Below, one piece after another: positions 1 to 42,100 of a stretch of 64,000 nt of DNA; the stretch's first letter is position 1, and every line of letters starts with the position of its first letter. Origin of the DNA: Cladorhizidae sp. MBARI D1340-BT2 (lineage: Eukaryota > Porifera > Demospongiae > Poecilosclerida > Cladorhizidae); contig JAQNBH010000011.1 in assembly GCA_028752905.1 (NCBI GenBank), positions 34,490,396-34,554,395 of the forward strand, given 5' to 3'. A model generated the notes under the pieces. The model was not told where the DNA came from. It ran no database searches and worked only from the letters and a program-made list of their open reading frames with translations. The translations under genes and the position numbers were made by a program.

Positions 1-194
1 CAGACAGCTAGGACATTGTGCTATAGGAGCTACTACACTTGCTGGATCTGTTGGTCCTGATGGCACTGGACAGATATGGTTGACTGATGTCAATTGTGTA
101 GGTGATGAGATAAGTCTCTCTATATGCCGAACTAATGCTATTGGAATCCACAATTGTTCGCACTTAGAAGATGTTGGTGTTAGCTGTCAAGCTG
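1..194 (+). CDS. SRCR exon 1 (type B, 5' part missing)
   Basis: The window opens inside an SRCR domain at RQLGHC. The rest reads through WLTDVNC, the ICRTN segment, HNCSH and VSCQAG, and stops at a GTAAGT donor after one base of a codon. The Cys in LGHC marks it as type B. Everything upstream of the second conserved Cys is outside the window. Confidence 0.85.
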
Positions 195-3100
195 GTAAGT
201 GACCATAATCATACTAGAAAGTTTTTCATGTGTGATTCATGATCATTAACAACAGAGTTTCGAGAACTGGGTATAATTTTAAAGTTACTATATACAGCAG
301 ATTACATGGCACTGTGCGAACAAGTTTTGTAAGTATAATAATAATTATTATGAGAAAATTCGTTTTTATAATATGTTACATCACAAATTTCCTTAGCTTT
401 TATCTTATTTAATATCATCGATGATATTAATATACAAATAAAAAATATTAAGACCATGGTTTAAAATTATGCTTCTTTCTACCAAAACTTTTATCCAGAA
501 GAATGTGGTGGCTTAACATGAATGCAACATAGCTAAGTTTAAACTGATGTTTTGAAATACTGTGCAAGTTAGATTGGGCTAGATTCACCTTAGCATTCGT
601 TCAACTTTTATAGTAACCATAATCATGGATAAAGATATATCTTTTTAATTATTTTATCACAAGCATATATCTACCTGCAGAACCATCTTGCAGATATGTA
701 ACTTGAGTTTTTCCAATCAGTTAAATTAAACATCTCTTCGAAGTATCATTACTTCAACTGAACTGGGCAATAACAAATTAAATCCACGCTGTTTTTATCA
801 CTATTCGTTTGAATGTCATGCATGCCCTGCAAACTGGAAGACTGGTATTCTGGAGTAATTTCTGATGAACTTGCAAAAACTATTCTGTATGAACTTGACC
901 TAATTGACATTTTAGACTATAAAATAAACCAAAAAATCCATGAAATTCTCCTTTTTAACATAATTATAGCAATCTATAGGAAATGGAAATTTTTATCATC
1001 TTTTAGATGCGTCTATATCTGTTTTGAAAACTTATTTGCTTGTTATTTTTGTTGGTGTTGTGTATAAATAAGTTGATGCGTTATCATAGATATATTTGTA
1101 GTTGAGTTTATAGAGCTCTACTTATGGATCATAGGAAAACTGATATTTATTCATCTCTGACCCATATATAGCTAAATAGGATATTGCAAAAAATTAAGGT
1201 CGCACATATTTTGAAAGTCATTTTGTTGTCGGTGGGTGTACGAAGAAGTACTTCATTCTGCTGTCCAAAGGGACTCCTCTGGTATCGAATTATCTAGCTA
1301 AATAAGAGACACCATTCCTATAAATAGGATTGCTAAACAGGTTATAACTATAATAAACTTAATCAGTTGTGAAATCCTTGCATTCCAATAACGTGAGCTT
1401 CAAACAGTTTATCAAAAAGAGAGGGAATTTCTGGTAGGTACAATATTTTTTATCTTTGTGTCAAAACACAATAGAATATAAATAATGCAACATTAAATAT
1501 TGAGCATAAATTTCAGTGCATAAATGGTATCATGCATAAAACTTTCATTTACAATGTATTAAAGTATTTAGCTTATTTTCAAAAAGTTTGCTTCCTACAG
1601 GTCCAGAATATGTATTTATCAAATACATATCTGATCTAGTTTCTTGTTGTCAAATATATAATATTGACGGTTTAATTTAAGGTGGAATATCGTGTCTATC
1701 TTGCTCATCACAAGGAGCCATTAGACTGCAAGGAGGCACAACTACTAGTGGACGTCTGGAAGTCTGCAATGGCAATGTTTGGGGCACAGTGTGTGATGAT
1801 GAATGGGGAGCCGCTGAAGCACAAGTTGCATGCAGACAACTAGGTTATTCTGCTTTTGGAGCTACTACACTTGCTGGATATGCTATTCCTGATGGCACTG
1901 GACAGATATGGTTGGACGATGTCAATTGTAATGGGGATGAGACCAGTCTCTTTAAATGTAGTGCTAACCACATTCGGGACCACAATTGTTTTCACTTTGA
2001 AGATGTTCGACTGAGCTGTCAAGCTAGTAAGTAATAGCTAATCATTGAACTAAGACGTTTGACATTTGCTTTACCAGACTTGTTGTCACAATGCTTTAGA
2101 ATTTTTGTGTCAAGGTTAGAGCAATAATATATTATGAGTTATGATTTGTTATTTTGACATTTAATCTTTGGCGATAGCTTTGTGCATAACTGAACTAGGA
2201 AGGAAAAAAAATCCCTTATTTTTCAAAACTTTCTCATATTTTCATTATTAAAACTGGTACTGGTATTCCAAAGAGTTCTCGGCAAATGACCATGGCTTGA
2301 ACTGCATATATAAATATTTATCTGTCAAAGGCTCTAGCTATAAAATTTGATCATTTCCCCATAATTTCATTATGACAACACTTTTCTCTCAAGGAACGAT
2401 CAGACTGCAGGGAGGCACAGACAGAAGTGGACGTGTAGAAGTTTACTACAACAATGTCTGGGGCACAGTGTGTGATCATGGTTGGGGGCCTGCTAACGCA
2501 CAAGTTGCATGCAGACAGCTGGGATATTGTGCTATTGGAGCTACTCCACTTGCTGATTCTGCTTTTCCTGATGGTACTGGACAGATATGGTTGGACAATA
2601 TCAATTGTGTTGGGGACGAGATCAATCTCTATATATGTAGTGCTAACCCTATTGGAATCCACAATTGTTCTCACTTTGAAGATGTTGGAGTGAGCTGTCA
2701 AGCTGGTAAGTAATAATAATTACTAGGAGAGTTTTTATGCATGACTATTGACTACAGAGATTTGAGCACTAGCAGATAACATGGCACTGTGTGAAAAAGT
2801 TGTGTGACTCTGTGGGAAATGTGGTATATTATAATGATAATTACTTTTGTTAATTATTTTTATTTTTTAATTCTATACTGCATTATAAAACTATTTATTT
2901 TCTCCTTAATTCTTACCTCACATTTTCTCCAGTAGGAGTGTGGTTGACTTAACAATAAAGTCAAATCCAAACTGCAGTTTTGAAATACAGTGCAAGTTAG
3001 TTTGGATTACAGTCCTCTTGCCATTCTTCCAACTTTTAATAGGAAGGATATACAAGATTTATTTAACCTAGAATATATCTACCTGCAGAACCATCTACAG

Positions 3101-6100
3101 ATATGCAACCTATAGTATAACAAACTGGTCAACACTTCTTCTATATCTCCAAAGCTAGACTGCTAGTAGATATACATAACTTACTAGCATCATGCTCTCA
3201 AACTAATGAAACTTTGGTAATAATAAACTGAACTACTTCCCATTCAACTGATGGAAATTCCTCAGTTATTCATGCACTCATAACAATAGGACAACAATCC
3301 ATCTTTAAATTTTGGTCACTTCAAATGAACTAGGTCAAATTTGATGGAATCCACAATGTACTTGTGTTACTTTTCTTTTTCTGTGCTGTTAAATACTCCC
3401 TGCAAACTATAAGACCGCATGCAAGAAGTGAATAAGCAAGAAACCCAGTATATTTATTCAGTTGAACTTGCAGCAACCATTATTGTCTAATTGTTTGAAG
3501 TTCTCAAGACTATAAAAAAAGTCCATGACATATTTTAACATAAAGCAGGAAATACCAATAACTGAAATCACCTACTTCTGACTCAATTGCTGGAGATCAC
3601 TCAGGTGATCATGCACTAATGATGCCAGCTTAACAATCCATCAGTTATATCAATTTCTTTGAAGTATGATAACTTCAATGGAACTAGGTGAAATTTGAAG
3701 TAATCCAGATTGTACTTGTATCACTCTTCCTTTGCATGAGAAGCAAGACCTGCAAACTGGAAGATAGCATTGAGAAAGTCAATAAGCAAGAAAACAAGTA
3801 TTTTCATTCAAGTGGACTGGCATAACCATTGTGTATGATTTCAAACAAATTTACCATTGGATATCCTCAAGACTATAAAAAAGTCCATGATATCCTCCTT
3901 TTTAACACAGCTATATATAGCACTAGCCTTAGAATTAACCCTGGATCCATAGAATCCCCTGCCCTGGGTCCATAAAATATCCCTGTCCACCATTCCTAGT
4001 TTGATGAGCGCAGAACCTGAGCTGTAGCCCTATTCCAGCACAGTCCAACATGGAAAAATACGAAGCAATTTTTAGAAATTGTTATCACATTTTGATTTTT
4101 GTTTTTAAGCAAATTTAGCTGATTATTTTTGTTATGCTGTTGTTTATAAAAAGATGATATTAATTTTATATATTGATATTTGCAGTTGCAATCTTTAAAA
4201 CTCCATTTATGCTCCTTAGGAAAAATGATATTGATTCGTTTGTGCCCTATAGCTAAATAGAATATTGTTGTACAGTACATGCGATGCAAGCAATAAAAGT
4301 CACGCATATTTTGAATATCACTATTTATGGTAAACCTAAGAGTTGAATTACATCAATGTACTATCCAAAGTTGTACTATCCAAAGAGAATCCTCTAATAA
4401 TCAAATTTAACTAGCCCTATAAGCCACATCATTCTTGTTATTGGAACTATTGCAATATGAACAAATATACTTCATCTATTTATGGAGTCAATTAATTGCA
4501 ATATACATATGAACTTCCAACAGTTGATGAAAAGAGAAATAATATCTAGTAGCTACAGCTGATCCTTGTGCTAGAATGGAATAGGAATTATAATATCAGC
4601 AGTAATGGGAATAAGTACAGAAATTTGTGAATTTCATTTGCATAAATGGAATCGTGCATAAAAGCAGCTTTTACATATTTTCAAACAATTAAGGTCCTTG
4701 AAATGTATTTATTATACATAATTTGCAAGCTGTATGCTGTCCTAATATCCGATATCTATGAAATTACCTTCTCCTACTCAATTGATGGAGTTTCCTCAGG
4801 TATTATGCGCTAATCATGAAAGCCCAACAATACATCAGCTATATAAAAAATATCTTTTAAGAATGGTTATTTCAATGGAACTAGGTGAAATCTGATGTAT
4901 TCTTGGACAGCCATTTTTTTGTGCATCTGTCCTGTCAAGCGTGCCCTGCGAAGTGGAGGAAGTAAATATCTAGAATGAATGCAAGGCATTGTGTGGTGGT
5001 AAGCAAAGGTTCAATAATTTGAAATCCCTAGCTGCTGGCCTAACACTGTACACTGATCTAATGAAATCAGATTAAATTATAATAATTTATTGAGAAGAAG
5101 CTAAGAATATTATTTATTATTATACTCACAGTTTTCAAGTAGTACCAGCTCAATATTGACCATAATGATCATTTCCATTTTAGACCTTTGTCTGTGATTC
5201 TCATTTCCATTTTAGCAAATTGTGTTCATAACTAGAATTTGTTGATGAATAGAGTGGCCAAGTTAGAATGAAACTTCACCTGAGCCTAAGGAAGCTTCTC
5301 TTTCATTGGCTGCTATGATCTTTTTAATTAATAACAATTGCTCTTTTTTTCAGATCTCATTTCTCTTTGTTCTACTGTTTCAGAAGTAGGCTTTGATTTT
5401 TCTCGGCAAATCAAACAGCTAGCTGTTCTGTTTAAAAAGATTTGGAGTCTACAGGTGTGCATGTAGCTATGGTTTTAGTATGCACATGTGCACAAGAATC
5501 CGCACGACAACTATTTCCAAATTGTTCAACCTCAATTACTAGATAACACCAAATCTGTTGATTTAGTGAGTGCTGTAGAAGTTTGCATCGTTAATACACT
5601 TCCTAGTTTGATTCTAGCCCAGACCAGTGCAGCTGCTAAAAGAGCTGTGGTTTGTAGCTATAAGTTCTTTGAATATGAATGTGTTGAAAGTCATACAGGT
5701 CTCGTTTTTTGCTGTAAAATTTATGATATCGACATTTTAATTAAAGGAGGAGCTTCATGCTCACAATGCTCATCACAAGGAGCCATCAGACTACAAGGTG
5801 GCACTACTATGGGACGTGTGGAAGTCTGCAACGAGAATGTCTGGGGCACGGTGTGTGATAATTTATGGGGAGCAGCTGAAACACAAGTTGCATGCAGACA
5901 GCTAGGTTATTCTGCTATTGGAGCCACAACACTTACTCGATTTGATGTTCCTGATGGTACTGGGCAGATATGGTTGGACATAGTCAATTGTGATGGGGAT
6001 GAGATCAGTCTGTTTAACTGTAGTGCTAGACCAATTGGAGTCCACTATTGTAGTCACTTTGAAGATGTTGGAGTGAGCTGTCAAACTAGTAAGCAGTAAT

Positions 6101-9100
6101 TTTCATAATAATTATGATTATTTTACCCAAATTTTGAACAATAGTTGTCACCAATGTTCTAGAGTATTTTTGTTATAGCCATAGCAATAATGTATAACAT
6201 CAAAGTACAATAATTGTCTTCAATTTTTCATGATTCTGGTATCTAATTGTTTACAGCTTGCTTTGTTGGCAAATGACCATAATCAATACTGTCCATAGTC
6301 AATACTGTATATATATATATGCATATTATACATATTAAGTTGTCAAACCCTCTTGATATATCATGATTTTTTTACTGTCATCATGACAACTCTCTCAAGG
6401 AACAATCAAGCTTCATGGAAGAACAGCTAGAAGTGGACGAGTGGAAGTTTACTACAACAAAGTATGGGGCACAGTGTGTGATCATTCTTGGGGAGCTGCT
6501 AATGCACAAGTTGTATGCAGACAGCTAGGATATTGTGCTATTGGAGCTACCACAATTACTGAATCTGATAATCTTGATGGAACTGGACAGATATGGTTGG
6601 ACAATGTTAATTGTGTTGGAGACGAGATCAGTCTCTTTAGCTGTGAGGCTAATGCCATTGGAGTTCATAATTGTTCACACCATGAAGATGTTGGAGTGAG
6701 CTGTCAAGCTGGTTAGTAATAGTCATCATCTAGGGTGTTTTTCATGTGTGATTCATTATCATTAGCAACAGAGGTTTGAGAACTATATAGATATTATAAT
6801 TATATAGAGAATTTGAAATTTCATGGCACCATGCAAACAAGTTGTTCAAACTACATGAGAGTATTTATTTATTTATTTATAATGTGGTATACCATAAGGA
6901 ATAACTTAATTCCTTTGCATTTGTCTTATTTTAAATCATGCACATGCAAAATATTTTTTTGGTAAATTATATACTGCATTTTACCAGTATATAATGATTG
7001 TTATTTCTCTAGTAGTGGTATGGTTCAAAGCATGAATGGAAAACAGGCAAGTCTAAATTGTAAATTTGAAATACAATACACGTTAGTTTGGATTACAGTC
7101 CTGTCATTCTCCCAACTTTAAAAGTAAACCATAATCATGGATGAAGAAGATATACAACATAACATAAGCATATATTTAGCTACCTGCAGAATCTGCAGAC
7201 AGTTTACCTGTATTATAACAAATAGGTCAACACATACTCGATCGTAATAAAAATATTTCCACGGCTAGACAGAAATTTTGTGCTAATTTATTTATAGATA
7301 GTACATAATTTGCAAGCCGCATGCTGTCCCAATATAAATCTAGCAATAAGTGAAATTACCTTGTCCTACAAAATTGATGGAGTTAGCTCTAGCATCATGC
7401 TCTATCATGAAAGTTCAACCATACATGAGCTATATAAAATATATCATTGAAGGGTGAAATCTGATGTAATTGATTTTGTGCTAAGACAACTATTCTTTTG
7501 CAAGTATCCTTTCAAGAATGCCCTGCAAAGATTGCTTGGAGGAAGTAATTGAGAAAAGAAGTATTTTTATTCAAGTGGATTTGCAGCAGAGTATTAGGAT
7601 TCAAGCTAATCATTGAGAGTGCCGTTATGTATGATTTAAACTGTTCAATATCCTTAAGATCATAAAAAGTGATAAAAAGTCCATGTTATCCTCTTTTTAA
7701 TAAAGGCAATGTGTAGAAATTGTAATGGTGCTAGCAATTTTTGTACTTAGCTTTTCATATTTTATGCTGTATTTTATAATTAGGACTTGATATGTAGAGT
7801 TGCAGTCAATATTGCAACTAAAGCTCCATTTATGTATCTCGAGGGGGGAAATTGTCTGAAACCTTGCTAAATAGAAGGTTATTTATTGTATCAATGATGG
7901 AAGAAATAAAGGTCAGGCATATTTTGAATAATATAATTTGTTGTCAGGTATATATATAAATATATGAGTATGAAGCATTACTTCATCGTGCAGCCTAAAA
8001 AGTTTCCTACTAATTTAGATGGATAGATAAGCTGCACTATTTCTGTCAAGGTATCTGTTGAAATCTCAACAAGTTGTAGGTTTACATCTGTGAAGTCCAT
8101 ACATTCTGATATAAACATGAGCTTCTAACAGACGATGAAAAGGAGGATTTAGTAATTAGCTACAGCTATCTATCTGAGTCGTGTGCCAAAACAAAATAGA
8201 ATATCAATAATAAAACATAATCAAAATTGTAGCATAGAAATTTGTGAATTTCATTGCATTATTGGAATCATGCATAAAAGGGGCTTTTAAACTTTATGTT
8301 GCTCATTTTTTAATTGTTTGCTTAATAGAAGTGCATGAATACGCATTTGTTAAAATATGTATCATGTCTAGTTTCTTGATGTGAAATATATTATATTGAC
8401 ATTTTAATTAAAGGAGGAACTTCATGCTCACCGTGCTCATCACAAGGAGCCATCAGACTACAAGGTGGCACTGCTACTATGGGACGTGTGGAAGTCTGCA
8501 ACGATAATTCCTGGGGAACAGTGTGCGATTTTAGATGGGGAGCTGCTGAAACACAAGTCGCATGCAGACAGCTAGGTTATTCTGCTATTGGAGCTACAAC
8601 ACTTACTACATTTGCTGTTCCATATGGTACTGGGCAAATATGGTTGGACATTGTCGATTGTGTTGGAGATGAGATCAGTCTGTTTAACTGTAGTGCTCAC
8701 CCAAATAGAGTCCAGTATTATTGTACTCACTTTGAAGATGTTGGAGTGAGCTGTCAAACTAGTAAGAAGTAATCTGCATAATAACATTTGCTTTACCAAA
8801 ATTTGCAACAATAGTTGTTCAATGTTCTAGAGTACTTTTGTTATAGCCTGTATAACGTCAAAAATAATTATCTTCAATTTTTTTAAAGATTCATGCTTCT
8901 GCTATATAGGTATATTTTCCAGCTGTTCTTGTGCATATGTGAAGTAGAGGAAAAGAGGAAACAACAACAAAATTCCTAGATATTGTCTTATATATTATGT
9001 CTTTTGTTCCCACTATTGGTATACTCCAAAGAGTTGCTGTCAAATGACCATAGTGTGAAATGTACATATGAATATATAACTCTTTTTGTAATTTTTCCCT

Positions 9101-12100
9101 TTATACTTAATTGATGTAACATTTTCATCATGAAAACTATTTTCTCTCCAGGAACAATCAGACTGCAAGGAGGCACAGGTAGAAGTGGACGTGTGGAGGT
9201 TTACAACAACAATGTCTGGGGCACAGTGTGTGATTATTCTTGGGGAGCTGCTAATGCACAAGTTGTATGCAGACAGCTAGGATATTGTGCTATTGGAGCT
9301 ACCGCACTTACTGAATCTGATAATCTTGATGGAATTGGACAGATATGGTTGGACAATATTAATTGCACTGGAGATGAAATCAGTCTCTTTAGCTGTAAGG
9401 CTGACACCACTGGAGTTCACAATTATTGTTCACACCATGAAGATGTTGGAGTGAGCTGTCAAGCTGGTTAGTAATAATCATCACACTAAGGTGTTTTTCA
9501 TGTGTGATTCATAATCATTAACAACAGAGATTTGAGAACTAGGTATTATAATTAATTTGAAATTTCATGGCACCAACCAAAAAGTTGATCAAACTACATG
9601 AGAGTATTATGGTATACCATAAGGAATAACTAAATTCCTTTGCATTTGTCTTATTTTATATCATGAATATGCAATAAAAAAAATTATACACTGCATTTTA
9701 CCAGAGTTTAATAATTGTTATTTCACATTTTCTCTAGTAGAAGTATGGTTCACGTAACATAAAAACATGAATGGGAAACAGGCAAGTGTAAATTATTGTA
9801 GATTTGAAAAAACAATGCAATTTAGTTTTATAGTGCTCCTGTCTTTTCTCCTAACTTTAAAAGCAAACCATAATCATGAATGATGAAGATATACAACATA
9901 TAATTTTTAGCACAAGCATAGCTACCTGCAGAACAATTTGCATACACTTTACCTGTAGTATAACAAATGAGTCAACACACACTCTATCGCAATAAAAAAT
10001 ATTTGCACAGCTTGACGGAAATGTTGTGCTAATTTATTTATAGATATACTTAGTTTACAAACCTCATGCTGTACCAATATCTGAAATCTAGTAATAAATG
10101 AAATTACCTCCTCCCTGATAACATGAGCTTCTATCAGGTAATGAAAAGTAGGATTTTGTAGTTAGCTACAGAAATCTTTCTCAGCCATGTGTCAAAACAG
10201 AACAGAAATTAAAAATATCAGCAATAATGCCATCATTAAATATGGAACATAGAAATTTGTGAATTTCATTATAATTGGAATCATGTATAAAAGGAGCTTT
10301 AAAAAATTATTTTTCTTGTTTTCAAACAGTTAGCTTTAACACAGGTGCATAAATATGCATTAGTTAAAAGATGTATCATGTCGAGTTTCTTGATGTGAAA
10401 TATATCATATTGACATTTTAATTAAAGGAGGAACTTCGTGCTCACCATGTTCATCACAAGGAGCCATCAGACTGCAAGGAGGCACAGCTACTAGGGGACG
10501 TGTGGAAGTCTGCAATGATAATTCCTGGAGAACAGTGTGCAATTATAGATGGGGAGCTGCTGAAACACAAGTCACATGCAGACAGCTAGGTTATTCTGCT
10601 ATTGGAGCTACAACACTTACTCGATTTACTGTTCCTCATGGTACTGGGCAAATATGGTTAAACAATGTTCATTGTGATGGGGATGAGATCAGTCTGTTTA
10701 ACTGTAGTTCTATATCAATTGGAGTCCGCCATTGTAGACACTCTCTAGATGTTGGAGTGAGCTGTCAAACTAGTAAGCAGTAATCTTCATAATACGATGT
10801 TTGACATTTGTTTTACCCAAATTTTCAACAACAGTTGTCAGCAATGCTGTACAATACTTTGGTTATAGCCAAAGCAATAATATATAACATCAATGTACAA
10901 TAATTATCTTCAATTTCTTAAAACATTGCTGATTTTGTTAGGTAATCTTTTGCAGCTTGCTTTGTGCATATGGAAAAGAGGAAACTACAACAACAATAAA
11001 ATTCCTAAATATTGTCTCACATATATATATTATGTCATTTGTTCCCACTACTGATATAATTATTTCAAAGTGTTGCTGTCAAATCACCATATTTGCACTA
11101 TATTGTTAAGGGCTATTTTTTCAATATTTTTTTTACTCTTAATTGATGGTAACATTTTCATCATGTTAACACTTTCTTGCCAGGTACAATCAGACTGCAC
11201 AGACTGCAAGGAGGCACAGGTAGAAGTGGACGTGTGGAGGTTTACTACAACAATGTCTGGGGCACGGTGTGTGATCATTCTTGGATGGTTAATGATGCAC
11301 AAGTTGCATGCAGACAACTAGGATATTGTGCTGTTGGAGCTACTACTCTTACAGAGTCTGATGTTCCTGATGGCATTGGGCAGATATGGTTGCACAATGT
11401 TAAATGTGTTGGGGATGAGCTCAGTCTTTTTAGCTGTAGAGCTAACCTGAGTGGCATCAACAATTGTTCGCACTTTGAAGATGTTGGAGTGAGCTGTCAA
11501 AATGGTAAGTAATAAATCATTACTAGTATGTTTTTCCTGTGTGATTCATGATAGGTTTGTGAAAAGGGGCTATTATAGATACTGGTATAGACTATAGACA
11601 GGAAATTACATGGCCCTGTGAATAAGTTGTGTAAACTACATGATGGAATTTATATGTTGTTATTGTGTTATATAATATATTTTGCCTTTAATAAATGTTT
11701 GAACATTTTATAATGCATTTTACTGAGGTTAAACAATTCTTTTTATTCCTACCATGCATTTTTTACAGTAGAGTTTGGTTTACTATAACAGGAATGGAAC
11801 ATAGCTTGTAAAAACAGTTGGTTTGATTTACAATGCAAGTTAGTTTGGATTACAGTCCTCTAGTCATGCTTCATTTTAAAGTAGCCGTAATAATGATGAG
11901 AGGATATGGAAGATATATGTTGTTAGCTTATTTAACACGAGCATATATCTATATCTGTAAAACTGTCTGCAGATATATAACCTGTAATGCACTCAACATG
12001 TAGTCTATTTCTATCTATCTATATTTCAAAAGATGGTCAAAAATCATTTTCTAGAGAAATATGTAAATATAATTACTTGCTAACATCATCCTCTCCAATT

Positions 12101-15100
12101 GTAGGCATATATGAAATGACCTATTTCCTAATTAATTCATGGAGATTCCTCAGGTCAATGTGTACACTCATGATGAAAGCTCGATAAGTAGGAATTCCTT
12201 AATTTACAGCTTGAAATCATCAAGACTATATAAAATGTCCATGATATCTTCTTTTTCAACATCAGGGAATTTATAGAAATTCTTATCATGTGTTAGATGT
12301 TTCTATTTTGGGTTTCATTTTGTGTATTGTTTAAAAATAAGGTGATGTTTTATAGATATTTGTAGTTTTATTCCAATTATGCATTATGTCAAAATAATTA
12401 TAATTTATCTGTGCCCCAAAACTATTCTGTCTTGGAGATTGTTGTAATCTGAACAAGTTGGATTTATATAATTCACTAATTTGTAAGATCCATACAATCT
12501 GATAACAAGGCAATGAAAAGGTGGATTTTGTAATAGCTACCATCATTGAATATGGAACATAGAAATTTGTGAATAATTGGAATCCATGTATAAAAGGAGC
12601 TTTTAAACTTTATGTTGCTTGTTTTCAAACAGTTTTCTTAATAAAAGTGCATGAAATGCATTAGTTAAAAGATGTATGTCTAGTTTCTTGCTCAAATATA
12701 TCATATTGACATTTTAGGAACATCGTGCTTAATGTGCTCACCACAAGGAGCCATCAGACTGCAAGGAGGCTCAGCTACTATGGGACGTGTGGAAGTCTGC
12801 AATGACAATGTCTGGGGCACAGTGTGTGATTATAGATGGGGAGCTGCTGAAACACAAGTTGCATGCAGACAGCTGGGACATTCTGCTATTGGAGCTACTA
12901 CACTTGCGGTTGCTGATGGTACTGGAAGGATATGGTTGGACGATGTCAATTGTGTTGGGGATGAGATGAGTCTGTTCAACTGTAGTGCTAGACCAATTGG
13001 AGTCAATAATTGTGCACACCGTTACGATGTTGGAGTGAATTGTCAAACTAGTAAGCAATAATAATCAGAATAGAATGCTTGACATTTGCTTTACCAAAAT
13101 ATGCAACAATAGTTATCACTAATGCTCTAGAGTACTTTTGTCATAGACATAGCAATAATGTGTAACATCGATGTACAATAATTATATTTAGTTTCTTCAT
13201 AATTTCTCTAGGTAAACTTTTGCACTTGTTTTGTGCATATGTGAACTAGAGCAAAAGTGGAAATGTGTTCAACAACATCTTAACAATTGTCTCACATAAT
13301 ATATATATTATATTGTCATTTGTACACCCGCTACTGGTATATTCCAAAGAGTTATTATAGTTTACATTATACATATGCTGTAAAAGGCTCTTTTGAAAAA
13401 AAATCCTTTATTCTTAATAGATAATATGTTTATCATGAAAACATTCATTTTTCTCTCCAGTAACAATCAGACTGCAAGGAGGCACAGGTAGAAGTGGACG
13501 TGTGGAGGTTTACTACAACAATGTCTGGGGCACAGTGTGTGATCATTCTTGGATGATTAATGACGCACAAGTTGCATGCAGACAGCTAGGTTATTGTGCT
13601 ATTGGAGCTTCTACTTATACAGAGTCTGCTGTTCCTGATGGCACTGGGCAGATATGGTTGCACAATGTCAATTGTGTTGGGGATGAAATCAGTCTCTTTA
13701 ACTGTAATGCTAACCTGAGTGGTGTCAACAATTGTTCACACTTCGAAGATGTTGGAGTGAGCTGTCAAAGAGGTAAGTAATAAATCATTACTGGTATGTT
13801 TTTCATTTGTGATTCATGATATTAACAATGAAGTTTGAGAAAAAGGGCTATATAGATATTGGTTTAAATAGCAGATTACATGGCACTGTGTGTACAAATT
13901 ATGTACACTATATGAGGAAATTTATCTGTTGATATTCTGGTATTATTATAATACCTTTAATACATTTTGAGAATTTTGTAATGCATTTTACTGATGTTAA
14001 ATAATCTTTTTTGTTTTGTTTTTCAGTTAAGTTATGGTTAACACTAATAGGAATGGAACAAAGCTGAACCAAAACTGTTGGTTTAAATTATAATGCGAGT
14101 TAATTTGGATTACAGTCGTCTTGCCATTCTTCCTTTTAAAGTAACCATAATAATGGATGAGTGTGTATAAAAGTAGGGTCGGATCCAGGGTGGGTGGGAT
14201 TGTGGTGGGTGCAACCCCCCCCCCTTTTGAGGTGTTGATCATGCATGTGACATGTATGATCAACACTTCACATCCCTTACCACATATAACTGGCTATTCA
14301 GCAGCTGTCAGCGTGTAGTTCATTACATAGCCAAATCTAAGGCGCATGTGCACCATGTCAGGAAAATGAAAATCAGGTAACTGATCCCCATGCCAATCAA
14401 GAAATTATCTCTAGAGGATCTTTGCCTTAAACGTTAATTATTTAGTGTGTAAATGTGTTTGTTGTCTACATTTGGTAAGTTCTTGTTTCCTTTCTCAGTT
14501 TATCTATTTTTAAACAAAGTGCGCTTAAGATTCGTGGATTTAAAGTCATTAAAATATCCCTTATCAGGGAATGCTTGATAAATTTTATTAGTTTGGAGAG
14601 AGCAAATGCCTCACAATTTCTTCCAAGATCTTGGAATCCCTCATCCATCAGTGTCTATAAATCCAGCAAATATTCGTGGTCAGGCATATTTGGTGCTGCA
14701 GTGATATCATCCGAGAAATCGCAGGTGTGCAAGCCAAAATTAAAGAGATTTCTCCGTTGGCTTTGTATACCCATTGTTTTTCACAAAAGCTTAACCTTTC
14801 AATTGCTGCATCATGCAAGGTTCAGGAGGTAAGGAATCCATCAGCCTTATTAATGAAGCTTATTTATTTTTAACCAACAATTCCAAGCAGCAAAGAATGT
14901 TTGAATTGACCTTGAAAATATACCTTCCTGATTCGTCCCATTCTAAACTTCCAGGACTCTGCAAAATACGCTGGGTAGAAAGGCATACTTGTTTAGAAGT
15001 ATTTTTCGAACTGTATGAGACATTAGTCACTTTCTTAGATGCTATCGTTTCACCAGCTGAGTATCCAGACTTAGTTTCTGAATCTGGGAGCTGGAATTGG

Positions 15101-33100: not shown

Positions 33101-36100
33101 GAACATTTTTATTTTTTCGAAGACCATGTCACATTTAACATATTATTCTATAAAGTGCTGGCAAAAGGCAATAGCTTGCACTGCATAACTACATATGAAA
33201 ACTTGGCTATAAAAGACCCTTGCTGAGTCATGTACTTTGTTCTAAGATGATTTTTTCCCATTATTGTAAATAGTTTCCTCTCAAGAAACAATCAGACACC
33301 AAGGAGGCTCCGCTACAAGCGGACGTGTAGAAGTTTTCTACAACAATGTCTGGGGCACAATATGTGATGATGCATGGAAAGATGCTAATACACAAGTGGC
33401 ATGCAGACAGCTAGGATATTCTGCAACTGGAGCTAATACACTTGCTGTATCCTCTGTGTATGGTGGCACTGGGCAGATATGGTTGGACAATGTGAATTGT
33501 TTTGGGGACGAGATCAGTATCTTTAACTGTAATGCAAACCCCATTGGGGTCCACAATTGTTTGCACTCTGAAGATGTTGGAGTGAGCTGTCAAGCAGGTA
33601 GGTACTAGTAATTATCATACTACTATGTTTTTTATGTGATTCATGATCATTAACTGCAGAGTTTTGGGAACTAGTATATACAGCAGAGTACATGGTACTG
33701 TGTAAACAAGTTGTATAAACTACAAGAGAGATCTATGTGGTATATCATAATAAATGTTTGTTTTTGTCTCATGTATATAATTATTACACAAAACATAAAT
33801 TTTATACTGCAATCCACCCAAGTTTAAATCCTTAATTTATTTTCAGCTGTATGCTTTATTATAATATGAATGGAATGTAGTTTTGAAGTACTGTGCAAGT
33901 TGTTTACATTACAGCCCTATTGCCATTCTTCCATAATTTTTTTAAGTAACCTATATCATGAATGAAGTGGATATGCAAAATATCTTGTTCTGGTGAAGGA
34001 TCAAGAAAGATAATCGCCCAGTTCTTACTACAAAACTTTCACATGGGTGTTTAAAGTACACTAATCAGTCATAAGTTCAAGACCCATTAATCTATATTTG
34101 AAAGTTTGTGGTATTCGCAGTGGCATACACAAGATTTTGTAAAGGAAGTTGCATCTTGTATATAGTATATCATGTTTGGTTGAAATATGTTGCATAGGTG
34201 ATGAAGCTGATATGCATGAATATAATTCAGAAATCAGTGTTTCACAGGGAAATACCATAAGAACACTGTATATAACAACAATGAAATTGGTGGTTAACAA
34301 CTTTATGTGCACTAAACATGGAGAGCCTTAACAATCAGAATTTATGAAGACAAGAAGTTTACTAGCGTGAGCATATCTATAGTTGTTCATATCATCCTAA
34401 CAAGCTTCTTGATCCTTATTTGCAGGAACTTCTAGCCCTTTTTCCAGCCTTATAGTAGCACATTAACTCCTCTAATGGTCTACGAATTTTTAAAACACTT
34501 TCTGACATACACAATATTTGTACTTTGGGCTTATGAAGGAAGTGAGCCTGTTGCAAGAATTGTTCTCATCGTTTGCTAAAAGGATCTATTCACCATGTCG
34601 GATACCTAAACGCTCGTTAGCGAACCTGTTTCAAAGTTAAACACTTAAAAGGTAATCACTACTACCTTCTTAGTTTGGATCAAGATACTTGCTCCTTCAT
34701 AATCTTTCTCTAGAAAGTCGTTTGATCCTTCTCAGACTCGCTCACAAGCTTAGGTAGGTCCTCAGTTCTCTGCCAAAAAACTATCCATTTTCTGTTAATG
34801 TACGTTATTTATTATAGTGTTTAGTAAGCACCTATTCTTAAATCAGTGCCCATTTTCTTGCAGGGGGTTTAGGTCACTAAACTACCATAGATTATAAGGA
34901 AGGTACTGCCATCAACATAATTATGCTCTCTCTATAAAGCCATCCAGATCTACCTTATCTTTTGTTGGTTACTAGCATTGCATGCTACCTTGCTATAGTT
35001 CAACCTTCACCTTTCTGTAGGTTAGGCTCATACAAGTATGGCAGGCTGGGTCTATATCTTTTCATCAATATTTGAAGTTGTCAAGTACCAACATCATACT
35101 CTGCAGAAGGTAGTGAGGTTGCATCTACTTTAGGTTCATATGAGGGTGAGAGTTTGAGATCTTATCTGAAACTGCAGATTGGTCACTCAGTAATGAATAC
35201 TCAATTGGCACTTACATCTCTTTGGCCCCCCCTGATGTCTCCTGATGTCTCTTTTGCACCCTTGATGCCTCGTGACTACACATGTGTAATATGTAGTAAA
35301 GTCTACATGATTCAAGAAACCAGAAACCTTTTTTAGGCATCATAAAAAATTGAATAACCTGGCAAGATTAATCAATACTAATTCATTTTTGACCTCCTTC
35401 TCCACCTCTCTCTTGTCCTTTTTGTAATATAGAAATAAGGTTTTGAAAAATTAGCTAATTGTACAGGAAGTAACTTACCTTAAAAATTACACCAGTTCAA
35501 ATGCTCATAACTTCCTCTATTTATATCTTATGACATCATTAAGGGTAAGGATCCTTGATCTGGAACCCTGTGCGTTTTTTACCCACTGCTATGGACACTC
35601 TATTAATCTAGCAGTAAGTGATTCAGTAAAACAGATGAAGCTCATGCGAGATGCACTTGATGTGACATATGAAATCACAAAGTTAATTAAATTCTCACCT
35701 AGGCGTGAATGTCACTTGAAGCAAGGCTAGTGATATGACTACATCAGCAGGCATTAGAGAGTACTTTGTCCCACTAGGTGGCCTGTAAGGGCTGATTCCC
35801 TAGACAGTATCATCAACAGTTATATATATACTCTGTCCTACAGTCAACATGGGATGAAGCACTTGATTTGGCGAGGGATACTGAAACAAAGGCCACAATT
35901 ATTGGAGTTTTTTCACAGATGAAATCTTTTGACTTCCTTTTTGGTGTACACTTGGTGAAATTCTATTTTGACATACAGACAACCTGAGTGCAGCATTACA
36001 GAAGAAGACCATATCTGCTGCAGAAGGTCAGCATATTGGCAAGATGGTGGTAATTGATACTCTCAATTCATTTCGTACAGAACAACTGTATGATTCTTGG

Positions 36101-39100
36101 GGGGAGAAAGTTAACAAATTTGCTCAATTAGTGGATGTGAGTGATCCACAACTTCCATGTCAACCGAAGACACCACGGCGTTATGAAATTGGGGAATCTA
36201 GTGGTGATTTTCACGTCTGCTAAGCTCTATTTTCGACAGCAGTACTATGAAGCTATTGACAACATCACAAATTGCTTGAAGAGTCGTTTGAACAACCTGG
36301 TTACAATGTTTACTGCAACCTGGAGAAGCTTTTGAGAAAAGCAGCTAAAAGGGAAGCTTTTGAAGATGAAATTGAATTTGTTTGCTCATTTTTATAAAGA
36401 TGATTTCAATCAAGTTCTCCTAAGTTCCAGCTTTTGAAAGTACTGCTGACGGAAATGGGGCTGATGTTACGATATTTAATATCAGTGACTACTTTCAATC
36501 CCTCAGTGCAGGCCAAAGAGAGCTACTCAGCCAAGTATGCCGCATCATGCAACTCGTGTTGGTAATGCCAGCAACAAATGCTACTTCAGAACATTCTTTT
36601 AGTGCCTTACGAAGAGTGAAAAATTACCTTCGTAGCTCCATGACTCGATGACACAGAAAAGATGAAATAATCTAATGGTACTGCATGTACACAAGGAACA
36701 TACAGATTCTCTTAGTAAGATAGATATAGCTAGTGAATTTGTTGGTGAGTGTGATAACAGGAAAAAGATGTTTGGGAAATTTTAAAAGGTTTTGTTTTTC
36801 ATTCAGACTTTATTCTTGACCCCAAAACATGGCATTGTATTATATCCTCGGCCATTTTGGATCTACCAATAATTTTTAGCTTCCTCCGGGCCTGCCAAGT
36901 AGAAGTCAAATATTAGCCCAACAATTGATTATTGATGATATCAATACCTCAGGTAATAGTCCTCACCCCTGTAGAGTTTCAGGGATCAATTTTGCTTACA
37001 ATTGATGGCTGACCTTTGCAGCACAGCTCAGAGCTCCATCATTAATATTCACGTGAGTTAAAGATCTTTATCGTGCAACGGAAATGACTGCTGACTTGTC
37101 ACATTTCTCTTCCTTCTACTCTATTTGGTAGGTAATGGAATGTAATTGAATGACATATTGCTAGTTCATTACTTTTAGCTTAGCTAGCTAGCAGGAATTG
37201 ACACTAGAATTAAAAAATCATGTTCAGGCAATAAATAGTCATAAAGTTTCAACAACAGGTGATTGTTAAAAACTATAGATGCTTCAGGCTCTGCCTCAAC
37301 TATATTTTTTGCACAAATCTCATCCCTTTTTATTGGAAATGGACTCATGGAAGAAGCAGAAACAGTAGCAAACATTTTGAACTTGATTTGAAGCAGCTGT
37401 TGGCAAGAGAACTAGAGCACTTGTTTGCTTACAGCGTATTGAAATCGTTTACCCATGGCAAACTTGAATGTAGGTGATTATTGATTTGGAAACACTAGAC
37501 TACCGTTGAATCCATAAAGTAAATAAAGAGTTTGTTGTGTGGATCTATAGTCGCTTTATTTCAACAGAGCTTTTCTCAATAATTGATATTGATTTTTACT
37601 GAGGACTCTTTCACATTATATATATAATATACATATATATCTTACTGTATAATATTAAGGGATAATCCTGTCGGTTGGTCCAATCATTTTGGTGGATGCC
37701 AGTTTCCTGATGGTATCATTCTTCACTTTTTCCCCACTTTTTCATTTCTTCTTTTGTTTTCTCCTTCACTTGATACACAAGGTCAGCATTTCAATATACT
37801 GGGTGGGATCATTAAAATTTTTCTTTAATATATCCTGATTTCAAAGTACCCAGTTTGATCATGGGGATACATTCACTTTTTAAATCTTTTTCTTTTCCTG
37901 ACATTATCATAAAATTCTGTGGGATGGCAAAAAATCAGGATCTGCCTGTACATGCTGTATATGTATGTGTGTATTTGAGACAACCAGCTTGAAAGCATTC
38001 AAGGGGTACCTCACCTTAATAAATAAAGGTGAAATCCTTTCATTTTGGGACTCCATCTTCACAGTTCAATCTCATTCACTAAATCCTCACCCTATTTTTG
38101 TTTTTCTCCATCTTGTTCACTTGATACTCTAGGTCGCCAGTTCTGGATGCAATCATTTTTAATTTTAATGCCAACATCAGGGTATTTCGAGATGGCTTAA
38201 ACCAAATAATTTTTAACCTGTAACTATAATAGTAGCTATGTCTGTTTGTATATGTAAGTGTGTGTTTAGAGGCCACTGGAGCTGGAAAACATTATTGCAG
38301 CAGACTGCAGTTATCTCATTAGTCTGCTGGTGCTGGTATTACAAGAAAGCTGCTGATAAATGACCATAGCTTACATTGTAAATATGAAATTTAGCTGTCA
38401 GATGCCCATACTGTGTCATGTGGAACGTTCCCTTTATTCTGATGACACTTTCATTATGACAAACACTTTTCTAGGAACAATCAGATTGGAAGGAGGTACA
38501 GCTACAAGTGGACGTATAGAAGTTTACTACAACAATCTCTGGGGAACAGTGTGTGATCATGAATGGGGAGCTGCTAATGCACAAGTTGCATGCAGACAGC
38601 TAGGATATTCTGCTACTGGAGCAACTACACTTACTGGATCTGCTGTTCCTGATGGCACTGGGAGGATATGGTTGTATAATATCAACTGTCTTGGGAATGA
38701 GATCAGTCTCTTTAAATGTATTGCTAACCCCATTGGGAACCACAATTGTTTTCACTCTGGAGATGTTGGAGTGAGCTGTCAAGCAAGTAAGTAATAACCA
38801 CCATACTAGGATGTTTTTCATTTGTGATTGATAAGGTATGAAACCAGGTTATTTACAGAGTTGATATAATATGTAGAGCAGACTAAAATGGCACTGTGTG
38901 AACAAATTGTGTAAGCTATATACACGAGAATCATATTAAATAACTAAGATCTTTCTTTTTATTATTTTATTCAATGAATGAATGAATGAACAAAATTTAA
39001 ATTAAATATTCTCTTATTACAATAACCACCTCAATATAATTAACATGAAATTTACACTCGAGATTTCAACTAAATGCATAATGTATACTCTGTTTCAAAT

Positions 39101-42100
39101 TTTAATAATGTTTTTAAACAGCATGTGCATCAAGACACAATTGTTAGATGGCATATCAGGTAGTATTTCTCGTTGTAAAATATAAAATATTGATGTTTTG
39201 ATTAAAGGAGGACCACCGTGCTCATTGCAAGGAGCAATCAGACTTCAAGGAGACACAGCTACTAGTGGACGTGTAGAAGTCTGCAATGACAATTTCTGGG
39301 GCACAGTATGTGATGATGAATGGGAAGTTCTGGATGCACAAGTCGCATGCATACAACTAGGATATTCTTCTGCTGGAGCTACTATACTTTATGCTTCAGC
39401 TGTTCATGATGGCATTGGAGAGATATGGTTGGATAATGTCAATTGTGTTGGTAATGAGATCAATCTCTTCAGCTGCAGTGCTAACCGAATTGGGTACCAC
39501 AATTGTGATCACTCTAAAGATGTTGGAGTGAGCTGTCGAGCTAGTAAGTAATTATCACACTAGGATGTTTTCATGATGGCATCATTAAGAACTATGTATA
39601 TATAGAGAGAATTTATATACACAGCAGTTGAATGAGGTTAAATTATTCCAATCCAGTCAATTTTTCTGATTTCCTACTATTTGTTGGCATATCTACATAA
39701 TTATATAGTCTCATCCTCTTGTCATTGTTGGTGATGATCAGAACTTTACTGCTCTTTCCGTACTCTTTCTCTAGGTTAAAGCATCTATTTTATGTATGTG
39801 TGTGTGCATGCTCAAACACGTGTAGGTTTTGTGCAAGTAATGGTAATCTGGGGCATGCTAAGGAAAGGGGTCGGGAGGTGTATACATGTGCATTTATTAA
39901 ATAAAAAAAATTTCTTCTTGTCCACTTGGGTAAGATCTGTTGCTTAAATTGTTGTGTTCCAAAATAATGGACATAAGTTGGCTTTTACCTTTTCTAAATT
40001 ACACCATTCAAGCATTAAAGCAGACGAGTTACAGCAGTTCATAATCACAACCCTTGAGTATTACCCTATTTTTAAAAATGTGTGACCTCACAAATTTATT
40101 TGATTCCAATGCCAGATTTTGGTGGATATAACTTATACGTAAATAACGTTAACTTTAATGTATGTGTTGTTTTGGATCTAAAATAGGACATGCCTATTTT
40201 TACTCTGTATTTGATCTTGACCTATTTCTCAACTTTTATATAATTAACCCTCTTTATTGAATCTGCCACTACTGGCACTAAAAAAATGTAGTAAAAATGG
40301 CAATTTTTGGTTCTAAAAGCTAGTTATGTTCATAGTTTTCCACCCAAGATTTACAACTGAAATGACTAGTAATGTTTTGAAGTGACTCCTACTAGTATAC
40401 TAGTAAGAATATATGTTATGGAAAATTATTTAAAATTTAATACAGCCTTATTATAAAATTAATATCAAATCAGATATTTAACTGAACCATTTACCATTTG
40501 GTCATGTGATAGCATGATTATTTAGGAAGTTGTGGTCAAAAGATATGACCACAAACTGACCACATAATATGAATATAATTATGAAAACAATGGTCATGAT
40601 TAGGAGTCCTATAACTTCATGTTATGGACTCGATATATGGCTCAAAAGATAGATCAATCCATATGCTTTCTTTTGCTTCTTAAAACTTAGGAATATACAT
40701 TACTATACAAATGTTATGCCAACCCATAATAAGGTCCTCATAAATCGACCACAAAAATATCTTGTCAATACAATATTCAGTAAACTTTTGATATAATTGT
40801 TTGACACAATGTAATCTAAAGCAATTTTGCGTGGAGTTTGAGGTGAAATCAGTGTCTGTGGCAAAAGTCAACCAAGTTGTGGAAAGCATGGAAACAATTC
40901 CGATCCTCCATAATGCAAATGTGAACCTTGCAGTATTTGCATTGCACACGACATTCTCCGAGGTAGGAATGGATGCCTTCACATTCTTCGTAACTTGATT
41001 CATCATCAGAGATGTCCCAAGCTGCCACAGTCACTTGGGAAATAATTTCAGCTATTGACAGTTTCTTCTCCATTGCTGATATCGTCCGACTGAAAATCGT
41101 TCGTGTTTTAAATATAATTTCTTCAACTTTCCTCCACCCAACTGCCGTAAAGATTGTCGTGTAAATAGAATTTTAATTCAGCTATCTTTTAATATAAAAA
41201 TTATTGCCTATTATCAAATGCATATGGCGCCATTGACAGTGAGAGGGTTAAAATACAGCACTGGAGTGCCTGTGAGGAAGCTATAGAAGGAAGTCCACAT
41301 ATAAGAACTTGATGTTTGATTAGCTACTATGGTCCCTTGAGCAACAGATATATTTAACAGCATAGTTTAATAGCTGCATAATGTTCCATAAAGCTCATTT
41401 GAGAAAGCTATAGCTAGATAAAACATACAGCCTTGGCTAAAGCTGATGGTTCCACAGGTCTAGACTTGGTGCAAAGAAGGAAGTCTACAGGCAAAAATGT
41501 ACCCAAATAAGTAAAAAAATTGCAGAACCTATCGTTAGTCTAGTTACGCAACTTTGATTATGTCTATAGTTTAATTTCTGCAGAGCATTCATCACAAGAA
41601 AGCTATTGCTACTAACCACAGCAAAAGTTGTAGTGGCTACACTCATCTGTTAGGCACAAATAAGACCATTTGTTTTGTAAAGTACTTCTAGAGCATTATG
41701 CAATCTGGGGCATGCTAATTATATAGCTAATTAATAGGGATAAAGCATGTCCTGCATGTTTCTTTTCTGTGGAGTACAGTCTTAAATATATTAAATACTA
41801 ATTCATACATCTTGCATTTGTATTTGTGATATGTTGTATGCATAGTATGATTAAGGTTTAAAAATGACTGAGGAATGTTGTTGATATACGTAAATCAGAT
41901 CAATAATGGACAGTCTGTTAAATTGAATATTTATTACATGTATTTATCACAGAAGTTGCGTATGGATTTGAAGCGGCAGAGTATTCGGTATATGAATCTG
42001 CAGACATCCTGGAAGTGTGTTGTAGGATAACCAATCTTGAGGATGATATACAGGTCACAAATTTAATCACTGTAGAGATCACTCTTCAAACAAGGACAGA

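Follow-up and report, generated by a model that had tools for sequence, protein, structure and literature searches.

Here we describe cysteines that appear to pair within and between neighbouring SRCR domains in a gene of the sponge Cladorhizidae sp. MBARI D1340-BT2. The window (the whole 64,000-nucleotide stretch of DNA that was analysed) most likely covers part of a large gene for a membrane-anchored receptor with alternating SRCR domains, which resemble those of sponges. We name the first linker cysteine C1 and the linker cysteine nearest its own domain C2. In the reading that we favour, and consider probable although far from certain, each type A domain would have one extra disulfide, from C2 to its VEVC cysteine. 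Type A domains in the first 14 exons would use the additional C1, three residues before C2, to bond the LGYC cysteine of the preceding domain, stapling B to A. This staple would have a single origin and would then have been duplicated along with its two-exon unit.

The window contains 18 SRCR exons on the + strand with phase-1 introns between them, as predicted from splice sites; a preliminary description of this DNA had placed them at the same positions and on the same strand. Two window exons score 85.2 and 96.6 bits against PF00530 (SRCR), for which the Pfam cut-off is 26.1. The features are as follows.

1..194, +, SRCR exon 1, type B: LGHC; cut by the window edge, first part upstream in L010
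1682..2026, +, SRCR exon 2, type A: linker GGISCLSCSSQ, LEVC, LGYS
2394..2705, +, SRCR exon 3, type B: LGYC, VEVY; domain starts immediately after the splice site
5747..6088, +, SRCR exon 4, type A: linker GGASCSQCSSQ, VEVC, LGYS
6400..6711, +, SRCR exon 5, type B: LGYC
8414..8761, +, SRCR exon 6, type A: linker GGTSCSPCSSQ, VEVC, LGYS
9152..9466, +, SRCR exon 7, type B: LGYC
10428..10772, +, SRCR exon 8, type A: linker GGTSCSPCSSQ, VEVC, LGYS
11184..11504, +, SRCR exon 9, type B: LGYC; insertion of three codons near the start
12718..13050, +, SRCR exon 10, type A: linker GTSCLMCSPQ, VEVC, LGHS
13461..13772, +, SRCR exon 11, type B: LGYC
16592..16936, +, SRCR exon 12, type A: linker GGVLCSPCSSQ, VEVC, LGHS; extra unmatched cysteine (GCVEVC)
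17355..17666, +, SRCR exon 13, type B: LGYC
24671..25015, +, SRCR exon 14, type A: linker GGTSCSPCSSQ, VEVC, LGYS
25967..26302, +, SRCR exon 15, type A' (one linker cysteine): RGTPCSSQ once spliced, VEVC
33286..33597, +, SRCR exon 16, type B': VEVF, LGYS; six cysteines only
38475..38786, +, SRCR exon 17, type B': IEVY, LGYS; six cysteines only
39208..39543, +, SRCR exon 18, type A' (one linker cysteine): RGPPCSLQ once spliced, VEVC
42775..43032, +, partial Calx-beta domain in reading frame (Pfam PF03160, E 1.2e-6)
45965..46357, +, frame judged by eye to encode a long hydrophobic segment and a short basic tail

The Calx-beta frame probably continues the extracellular portion of the SRCR gene, and the last frame, for which there was no Pfam match, is the probable membrane anchor and cytoplasmic end. 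Of 173 full exons, 3 lack at least one of the six shared SRCR cysteine columns, in one case through a cut-off end. As a control, the canonical cysteines C27 and C92 are both missing in two sister exons, a joint loss.

The extra cysteines are regularly arranged. Two linker cysteines three apart are present in exons 2, 4, 6, 8, 10, 12 and 14, each with an LG[Y/H]C domain before it; exons 15 and 18 have a single linker cysteine, both after an LGYS domain; and exons 16 and 17 lack linker cysteines and LGYC alike. All nine linker-cysteine exons have a cysteine at the VEVC position (exon 2 as LEVC), compared with none of the nine others. The preliminary description had reported these three regularities (seven two-cysteine linkers after LG[Y/H]C and two one-cysteine linkers after LGYS; VEVC in A exons only; neither extra cysteine in exons 16–17), and each was borne out in the window. 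An argument from parity, in which every cysteine is paired, is weakened by exon 12, the additional cysteine of which makes its count odd, and by other exons with further cysteines: unmatched cysteines occur at column 14 in 4 of 173 full exons, including exon 12, and at column 66 in one, and an even count is thus not strictly kept.

On codon evidence, the linker is coding. Its last bases, CACAAG, could serve as a 3' splice site with the phase of the upstream AAAG, so the linker might have been intron; were CACAAG used, the two cysteines would never be translated. The codon evidence rules this out to the point of leaving it extremely improbable. The linker cysteine codons undergo third-position changes and almost never change residue, whereas adjoining codons do. 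Among 79 two-cysteine A exons plus L007 there are 5 third-position changes at the C1 codon and 6 at the C2 codon, with one residue change at C1 and none at C2, although these rows were picked for having the cysteines, and residue counts at LGxC, C1 and C2 are thus partly by construction. Moreover, linker pN/pS is 0.44 in frame versus 1.3 and 0.95 in the shifted frames, and other sponge-like sequences contain a homologous linker and preceding domain end within one open frame. In the structure model the linker is of low confidence, with a mean pLDDT of 61 over the first ten residues.

The pairing of C2 with VEVC within the type A domain is well supported as a pattern, from which we infer the bond. 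That a linker cysteine pairs with VEVC in its own domain had been proposed from the window, and as a pattern it extends well beyond it: among 120 listed proteins, the linker cysteine is present in 71/71 VEVC domains with an adjacent upstream domain (all in 4 proteins), and one or two linker cysteines are present in 95/95 full VEVC exons of the host genome. Non-VEVC domains of the 120 listed proteins lack a linker cysteine in 1975 of 2041 cases and have one in 66. Among the listed matches of three protein searches (the best 120 of 3612, of 396 and of 7780, so that rarer cases may be missed), 180 of the 184 VEVC domains having at least six upstream residues have a cysteine no more than 14 residues upstream. 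For the other four, the cysteine is slightly further up in P0061, P0059 and P0206, and P0216 shows just 7 residues. Group B domains that resemble LGxC through misalignment were excluded from the protein counts. Linker cysteine and VEVC are present throughout the sponge-type relatives found among the listed matches.

The CxxC spacing of the linker is that of redox motifs, and the linker could be such a motif or hold a C1–C2 disulfide, with VEVC then bonding LGYC. We regard this as very unlikely: sponge-type relatives and the A' exons have VEVC with a single linker cysteine and without LGxC, which makes the linker cysteine its more likely partner, and the L060 linker, CSLGSLC, keeps both cysteines six apart instead of three (with LGYC before it in L083).

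The outer pair, C1 and LGYC, requires more caution. In an exon tree, the LGYC exons form one side of a branch (99/96), the two-cysteine exons one side of another (89/89) and the one-cysteine exons one side of a further branch (96/88). By this grouping a single two-exon unit was copied to give all nine cases, which amount to one history rather than nine tests. The counts behind the earlier statement of 'no exception in nine cases' are correct but the cases are not independent, as the exons group by kind; all paralogues share one history, and exon order alone is thus weak evidence. Residue changes were counted on trees over all full exons, selected independently of the extra cysteines. Column 46, the LGYC position, needs 2 residue changes in 82 non-VEVC exons, against a mean of 5.02 per codon. 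In the 95 VEVC exons C2 needs none and C1 needs 6, mostly in the one-cysteine kind, compared with 5–20 at other linker codons.

The gene family comprises 1692 to 1890 candidate exons at first look in three host-genome searches, in each of which 150 exons were scored. Our genome survey covered 338 kb and 178 full SRCR exons (80 two-cysteine A, 71 LGxC B, 15 one-cysteine A and 12 without either), with linker cysteines scored in VEVC exons only; VEVC and LGxC occur together in none of the 178. Among gap-free neighbours, 33 two-cysteine linkers follow LGxC and 13 one-cysteine linkers have no LGxC before them, so that 46 of 47 fit the rule and one breaks it. None of the 15 one-cysteine exons with a known predecessor follows LGxC. 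A one-cysteine linker after LGYC, which the preliminary description had named as the case that would count against it, occurs in 0 of 66 LGxC-to-VEVC neighbours (33 fully read, 33 with an unread stretch between).

C1 most likely bonds the LGYC cysteine of the preceding domain, to judge from this order and the few changes at both residues. In the textbook scheme, the last SRCR cysteine is bonded to the cysteine six residues before the LGYC position. C1 lies seven residues past the last cysteine of B, a chain path that would make the C1–LGYC pairing short. The sole LGYY at the LGxC place and the sole phenylalanine at C1 form one neighbouring pair (L007), and its sister gene copy keeps both cysteines (LGYC in L038, SCQPC in L063). 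This LGYY/LFSPC pair is consistent with preceding-domain pairing; it lies within a damaged gene copy (38.15 Mb), the A exon of which is split by an insertion. The next intact exon of that copy, 38146133, has two linker cysteines and a predecessor without LGxC.

The first SRCR exon found for the window's gene lies at -749 to -444 (window coordinates, L010) and is of the two-cysteine kind (ISCSSCSPQ), with no further SRCR exon in the 29 kb upstream. Eight gene copies start with a two-cysteine exon, and the sequence read upstream of it contains no LGxC exon; that sequence spans 29 kb in the window's gene, 8.2 kb in L023, 4.1 kb in L019, 1.7 kb in L024 and less than 100 bases in four others. An unconfirmed signal-peptide-like candidate exon, MVHMAYISLAILLLLLFYL, which contains no cysteine, lies 29 kb upstream of the window's gene. 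The opposite strand of this stretch yielded no such candidate, and the background is 3 in 17 other 10-kb loci, both strands. The nearest 2.1 kb upstream has one short open candidate exon in common with L023, with a cysteine in the L023 version and none in that of the window's gene.

Because these copies start with a two-cysteine exon, the counts fit pairing with the preceding or the following domain equally well: such arrays have one more two-cysteine A than B, and pairing with the following domain leaves as many cysteines over. The alternating part also closes with a two-cysteine A and then a one-cysteine A (exons 14–15; L013, L021 and L026), so that a pairing of C1 with the LGYC of the following B domain suits the counts no less well, and the damaged 38.15 Mb copy gives one mismatch in either register. 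Nevertheless, we consider the following-domain arrangement distinctly unlikely: C1 comes directly after the preceding domain and would, from chain order and the textbook SRCR disulfides, have to span the whole A domain, and the LGYY/LFSPC pair suits the preceding register. The earlier proposal that the second linker cysteine pairs with LGYC of the preceding domain thus draws support from exon order (46 of 47) and the few cysteine changes, and is at odds with eight first exons that, in the sequence read, have no LGxC before them and with one further exon that breaks the rule.

Those first exons also bear on a different account, in which only the C2–VEVC bond is real, and C1 and LGYC, inherited with one duplicated two-exon unit, are free or bond receptor chains into oligomers. 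The first SRCR exon retains C1 without LGxC before it, as far as read; LGYC exons and two-cysteine exons each form one side of a branch; and Peng et al. 2024 (PMC10855680, in its excerpted text) propose external disulfides for extra sponge SRCR cysteines. We hold this account to be unlikely, given the few changes at both cysteines, the order kept in 46 of 47 neighbours and the lack of LGxC before all 15 one-cysteine exons with a known predecessor. A more far-reaching reading, which we hold to be less likely than not, is a disulfide arrangement new to SRCR arrays. The CxxC would clamp two domains, with C2 bonded to the VEVC of its own domain and C1 to the preceding LGYC, so that covalently stapled B–A units would line the receptor stalk, and the unmatched C1 of the first domain would join two receptor chains at their tips.

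Among the listed matches, the outer pair appears confined to the window's gene family. Among 2765 domains from 340 listed proteins (columns 40–46 read in 2234), 5 that do not follow the group B pattern have a cysteine at column 46, and none of these shows the C1–LGYC pattern of the family. That of P0176 looks like intron read-through; the mussel protein P0157 has two, with a possible partner near the first; P0206 has two of this type four apart; and the P0249 sequence is cut off at this region.

SRCR arrays are usually pictured as beads on a string. The staple, if true, would fix the angles between neighbours, stiffening B–A pairs and making the pair the working unit, an arrangement that, as the family is large, would be repeated many times in one animal. 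The window domains have the six-cysteine frame of group A SRCR domains (MARCO, SCARA1); the AlphaFold model of exon 14 has mouse MARCO as its top Foldseek match (E 1.2e-10), and exons 16 and 17, to go by their cysteine count, belong to plain group A. A vertebrate group A domain is encoded by more than one exon; by contrast, the window domains occupy one exon each and have extra cysteines in types A and B.

Group B domains (CD163, CD6, DMBT1) have eight cysteines and four disulfides (PMC10855680, excerpted text). Type B resembles them in having a cysteine shortly past LG, but one residue further (LG-Y-C rather than LG-C, column 46 versus 45); none of the 17 full window exons has the group B cysteine at column 11 or 45, and exon 1 has LGHC. 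As excerpted, the same source describes Group C as six shared cysteines plus one additional, massively duplicated in a sponge, with the extra cysteine modelled as unpaired and suggested to bond between molecules and to make polymers; LGYC and the second linker cysteine are not described in that text. Types A and A' likewise have a seventh cysteine, at VEVC. The excerpted text does not give the position of the Group C cysteine, but it is probably VEVC, since Amphimedon queenslandica P0059 and P0061 are built of VEVC domains. Unlike the Group C description, VEVC in the window comes with a linker cysteine just outside the domain profile. This linker cysteine may be the likely partner of the seventh cysteine of Group C, missed by domain-only models, and would offer a simple partner for a residue there reported as unpaired.

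The gene under study has its middle and end inside the window (C2:34490396-34554395, forward strand; C2 is the contig carrying it, in an assembly of 857 Mb and 325 contigs), with the following parts:

1-39543, forward strand: SRCR exons 1-18, each a single predicted phase-1 exon
42775-43032, forward strand: reading frame with a Calx-beta match (E 1.2e-6)
45965-46357, forward strand: reading frame with a probable membrane anchor, judged by eye
-749 to -444 (9251-9556 of the adjoining stretch L010): first SRCR exon found, a two-Cys exon

No SRCR exon was found within 29 kb upstream of this first one. The gene may start 29 kb before it, at about 262-320 of stretch L028, where an exon resembling a signal peptide, MVHMAYISLAILLLLLFYL, is followed by a phase-1 donor. 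The long intron between exons 15 and 16 contains the remains of an LTR retrotransposon (27338-31538, reverse strand), of which the integrase core matches PF00665 within 27338-28339 and the remaining parts were recognized by eye. Two transposase-like DUF4371 matches, which we take to be of hAT type, lie on the reverse strand at 20457-21425 and 48444-48881.

Apart from exons 16 and 17, which carry none of the extra Cys, the window exons fall into three types: A exons carry VEVC (LEVC in exon 2) and two linker Cys three residues apart, A' exons carry VEVC and one linker Cys, and B exons carry LGxC (LGYC or LGHC) and lack VEVC. The preliminary description held that two linker Cys follow a domain with LGxC and one linker Cys a domain without it, and within the window this is borne out in 9/9 cases. 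A tree was built from 12 relatives and all window domains but that of the partial exon 1 (17 domains); in it the LGYC exons (six, 99/96), the two-Cys exons (seven, 89/89) and the one-Cys exons (two, 96/88) each form one side of a branch, so the nine agreeing cases represent one history. Sister genes are informative on the rule only where they have changed independently. Exon 12 (16592-16936) carries one further Cys, at column 14 of the 102-column SRCR profile (GCVEV), as do exons at C2:21361898, 38137069 and 38435295 and in stretch L079 (4/173 exons in one count, plus one more from another reading); it probably arose in several exons through CGT to TGT at a CpG.

Genes with the same plan are spread along contig C2. 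The sequence covered, 337,875 bases after merging and including the window, contains 191 SRCR matches, 178 of them full (at least 94 of 102 columns): 80 two-Cys A exons, 71 LGxC B exons, 15 one-Cys A exons and 12 with neither VEVC nor LGxC (11 LGYS, 1 LGYY), linker Cys being tallied for VEVC exons only. Where the predecessor of a VEVC exon and all intervening sequence were read (matches below 50 columns ignored), 33 two-Cys exons follow LGxC, 13 one-Cys exons follow no LGxC, and a single two-Cys exon follows no LGxC. Neighbours separated by an unread gap (33 two-Cys after LGxC, 2 one-Cys after no LGxC) all obey the rule. The C7 locus yielded three one-Cys exons. At about 21.3-30.1 Mb of contig C2, A, A' and B exons recur in several sets (of up to nine) whose members score equally, which suggests a very recent duplication of a whole SRCR stretch.

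Fourteen two-Cys exons and one one-Cys exon have no predecessor within 12 kb in the sequence covered; eight of the 14 are first exons (SCSSC) and the others lie at the edges of the stretches covered. The first exons are in L010 (9251-9556), L023, L019, L024, L029, L036, L042 and L047, and no LGxC exon was found ahead of them over upstream spans of 29, 8.2, 4.1 and 1.7 kb and, in four cases, <100 bases. The first linker Cys of these eight first exons perhaps bonds between receptor chains.

Because the CACAAG at the end of the A-exon linker could serve as an in-phase splice site, the coding status of the linker needed to be doubted. Across seven A exons, linker pN/pS is 0.44 in frame (silent 0.36, non-silent 0.16) and 1.3 and 0.95 in the shifted frames. 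In 79 A exons (selected for two Cys, plus L007), third-position changes (TGC/TGT) number 5 in the first Cys codon and 6 in the second, and residue changes 1 and 0, the latter low partly by construction because the rows were picked for two Cys; residue changes number 7-19 in the six surrounding codons and 2 in the Gln codon. In an unselected count of all 95 VEVC exons, on a tree built without the linker, the second Cys needs 0 residue changes, the first 6 and other linker codons 5-20. This count leaves the likelihoods given below for the two bonds unchanged, as they draw on more than the selected rows. The end of the preceding domain and the homologous linker share one open frame in other sponge-like sequences. 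The linker is very probably coding. VEVC-type relatives with names are from sponges (Amphimedon, Ephydatia, Geodia) and the remainder are metagenome sequences, which makes a sponge the likely source of the gene.

Among the proteins found (domains <70 columns and non-adjacent domains dropped), each of the 71 VEVC domains that directly follow another domain has a linker Cys (71/71), whereas 1975/2041 non-VEVC domains have none. Judged from these relatives, the proposed bond between the second linker Cys and VEVC of its own domain is very likely. Modelled with AlphaFold from 25 sequences, exon 14 (mean pLDDT 83.1; 61 for the first ten residues) has an SRCR fold, with MARCO as the top structural match.

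The other proposed bond, from the first linker Cys to LGYC of the preceding domain, is likely but unproven; it is argued for by the order of the exons, the small number of changes, chain distance and a single joint loss. In a tree of all 82 full non-VEVC exons, column 46 needs 2 residue changes (mean codon 5.02). LGYY replaces LGxC in one exon and Phe replaces the first linker Cys in one A exon (LFSPC), and these two exons adjoin in the 38.15 Mb gene (stretch L007), a meeting with a chance of about 1/80 by our own arithmetic if such single losses were placed at random; the sister gene at 38.43 Mb retains both LGYC and SCQPC. This joint loss weighs less because the LFSPC exon is interrupted by an insertion and ends about 2 kb further on, no B exon comes after it, and the following exon carries two linker Cys with no LGxC ahead of it. 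At C2:38149358-38150696 (stretches L032 and L084), an insertion that splits an A exon starts with sequence that by eye resembles a DNA transposon end. The canonical C27 and C92, which the textbook SRCR pairing joins, serve as a control: both are missing from the A exon in both sister copies, showing that partners can be lost jointly here.

The first linker Cys might instead bond to LGYC of the following domain: arrays that start with A hold one more two-Cys A exon than B exons, so counting fits this pairing too and does not by itself separate the two. Chain distance favours the preceding domain: the first linker Cys lies seven residues past the last Cys of the B domain, and the SRCR scheme pairs that last Cys with column 40, which precedes LGYC by six residues.

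A metagenome protein, P0206, has a Calx-beta-like sequence (by eye) ahead of its SRCR domains, carries the two Cys of LKLCSTDC, and appears from sequence to be another SRCR combination of similar kind. The mainly open-access literature listings that were consulted contain no description of a disulfide linking one SRCR domain to its neighbour; where interdomain disulfides came up, it was for proteases and in reviews. Seven-Cys sponge SRCR domains have been named Group C (Peng et al. 2024, PMC10855680). In that paper, the extra Group C Cys is unpaired in domain models and bonds between molecules are suggested, and a single sentence mentions internal or interdomain disulfides as a possible cause of one- or two-domain duplication units. 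The position of the linker Cys described here, beyond the limits of the domain profile, may explain why it was overlooked in domain models.
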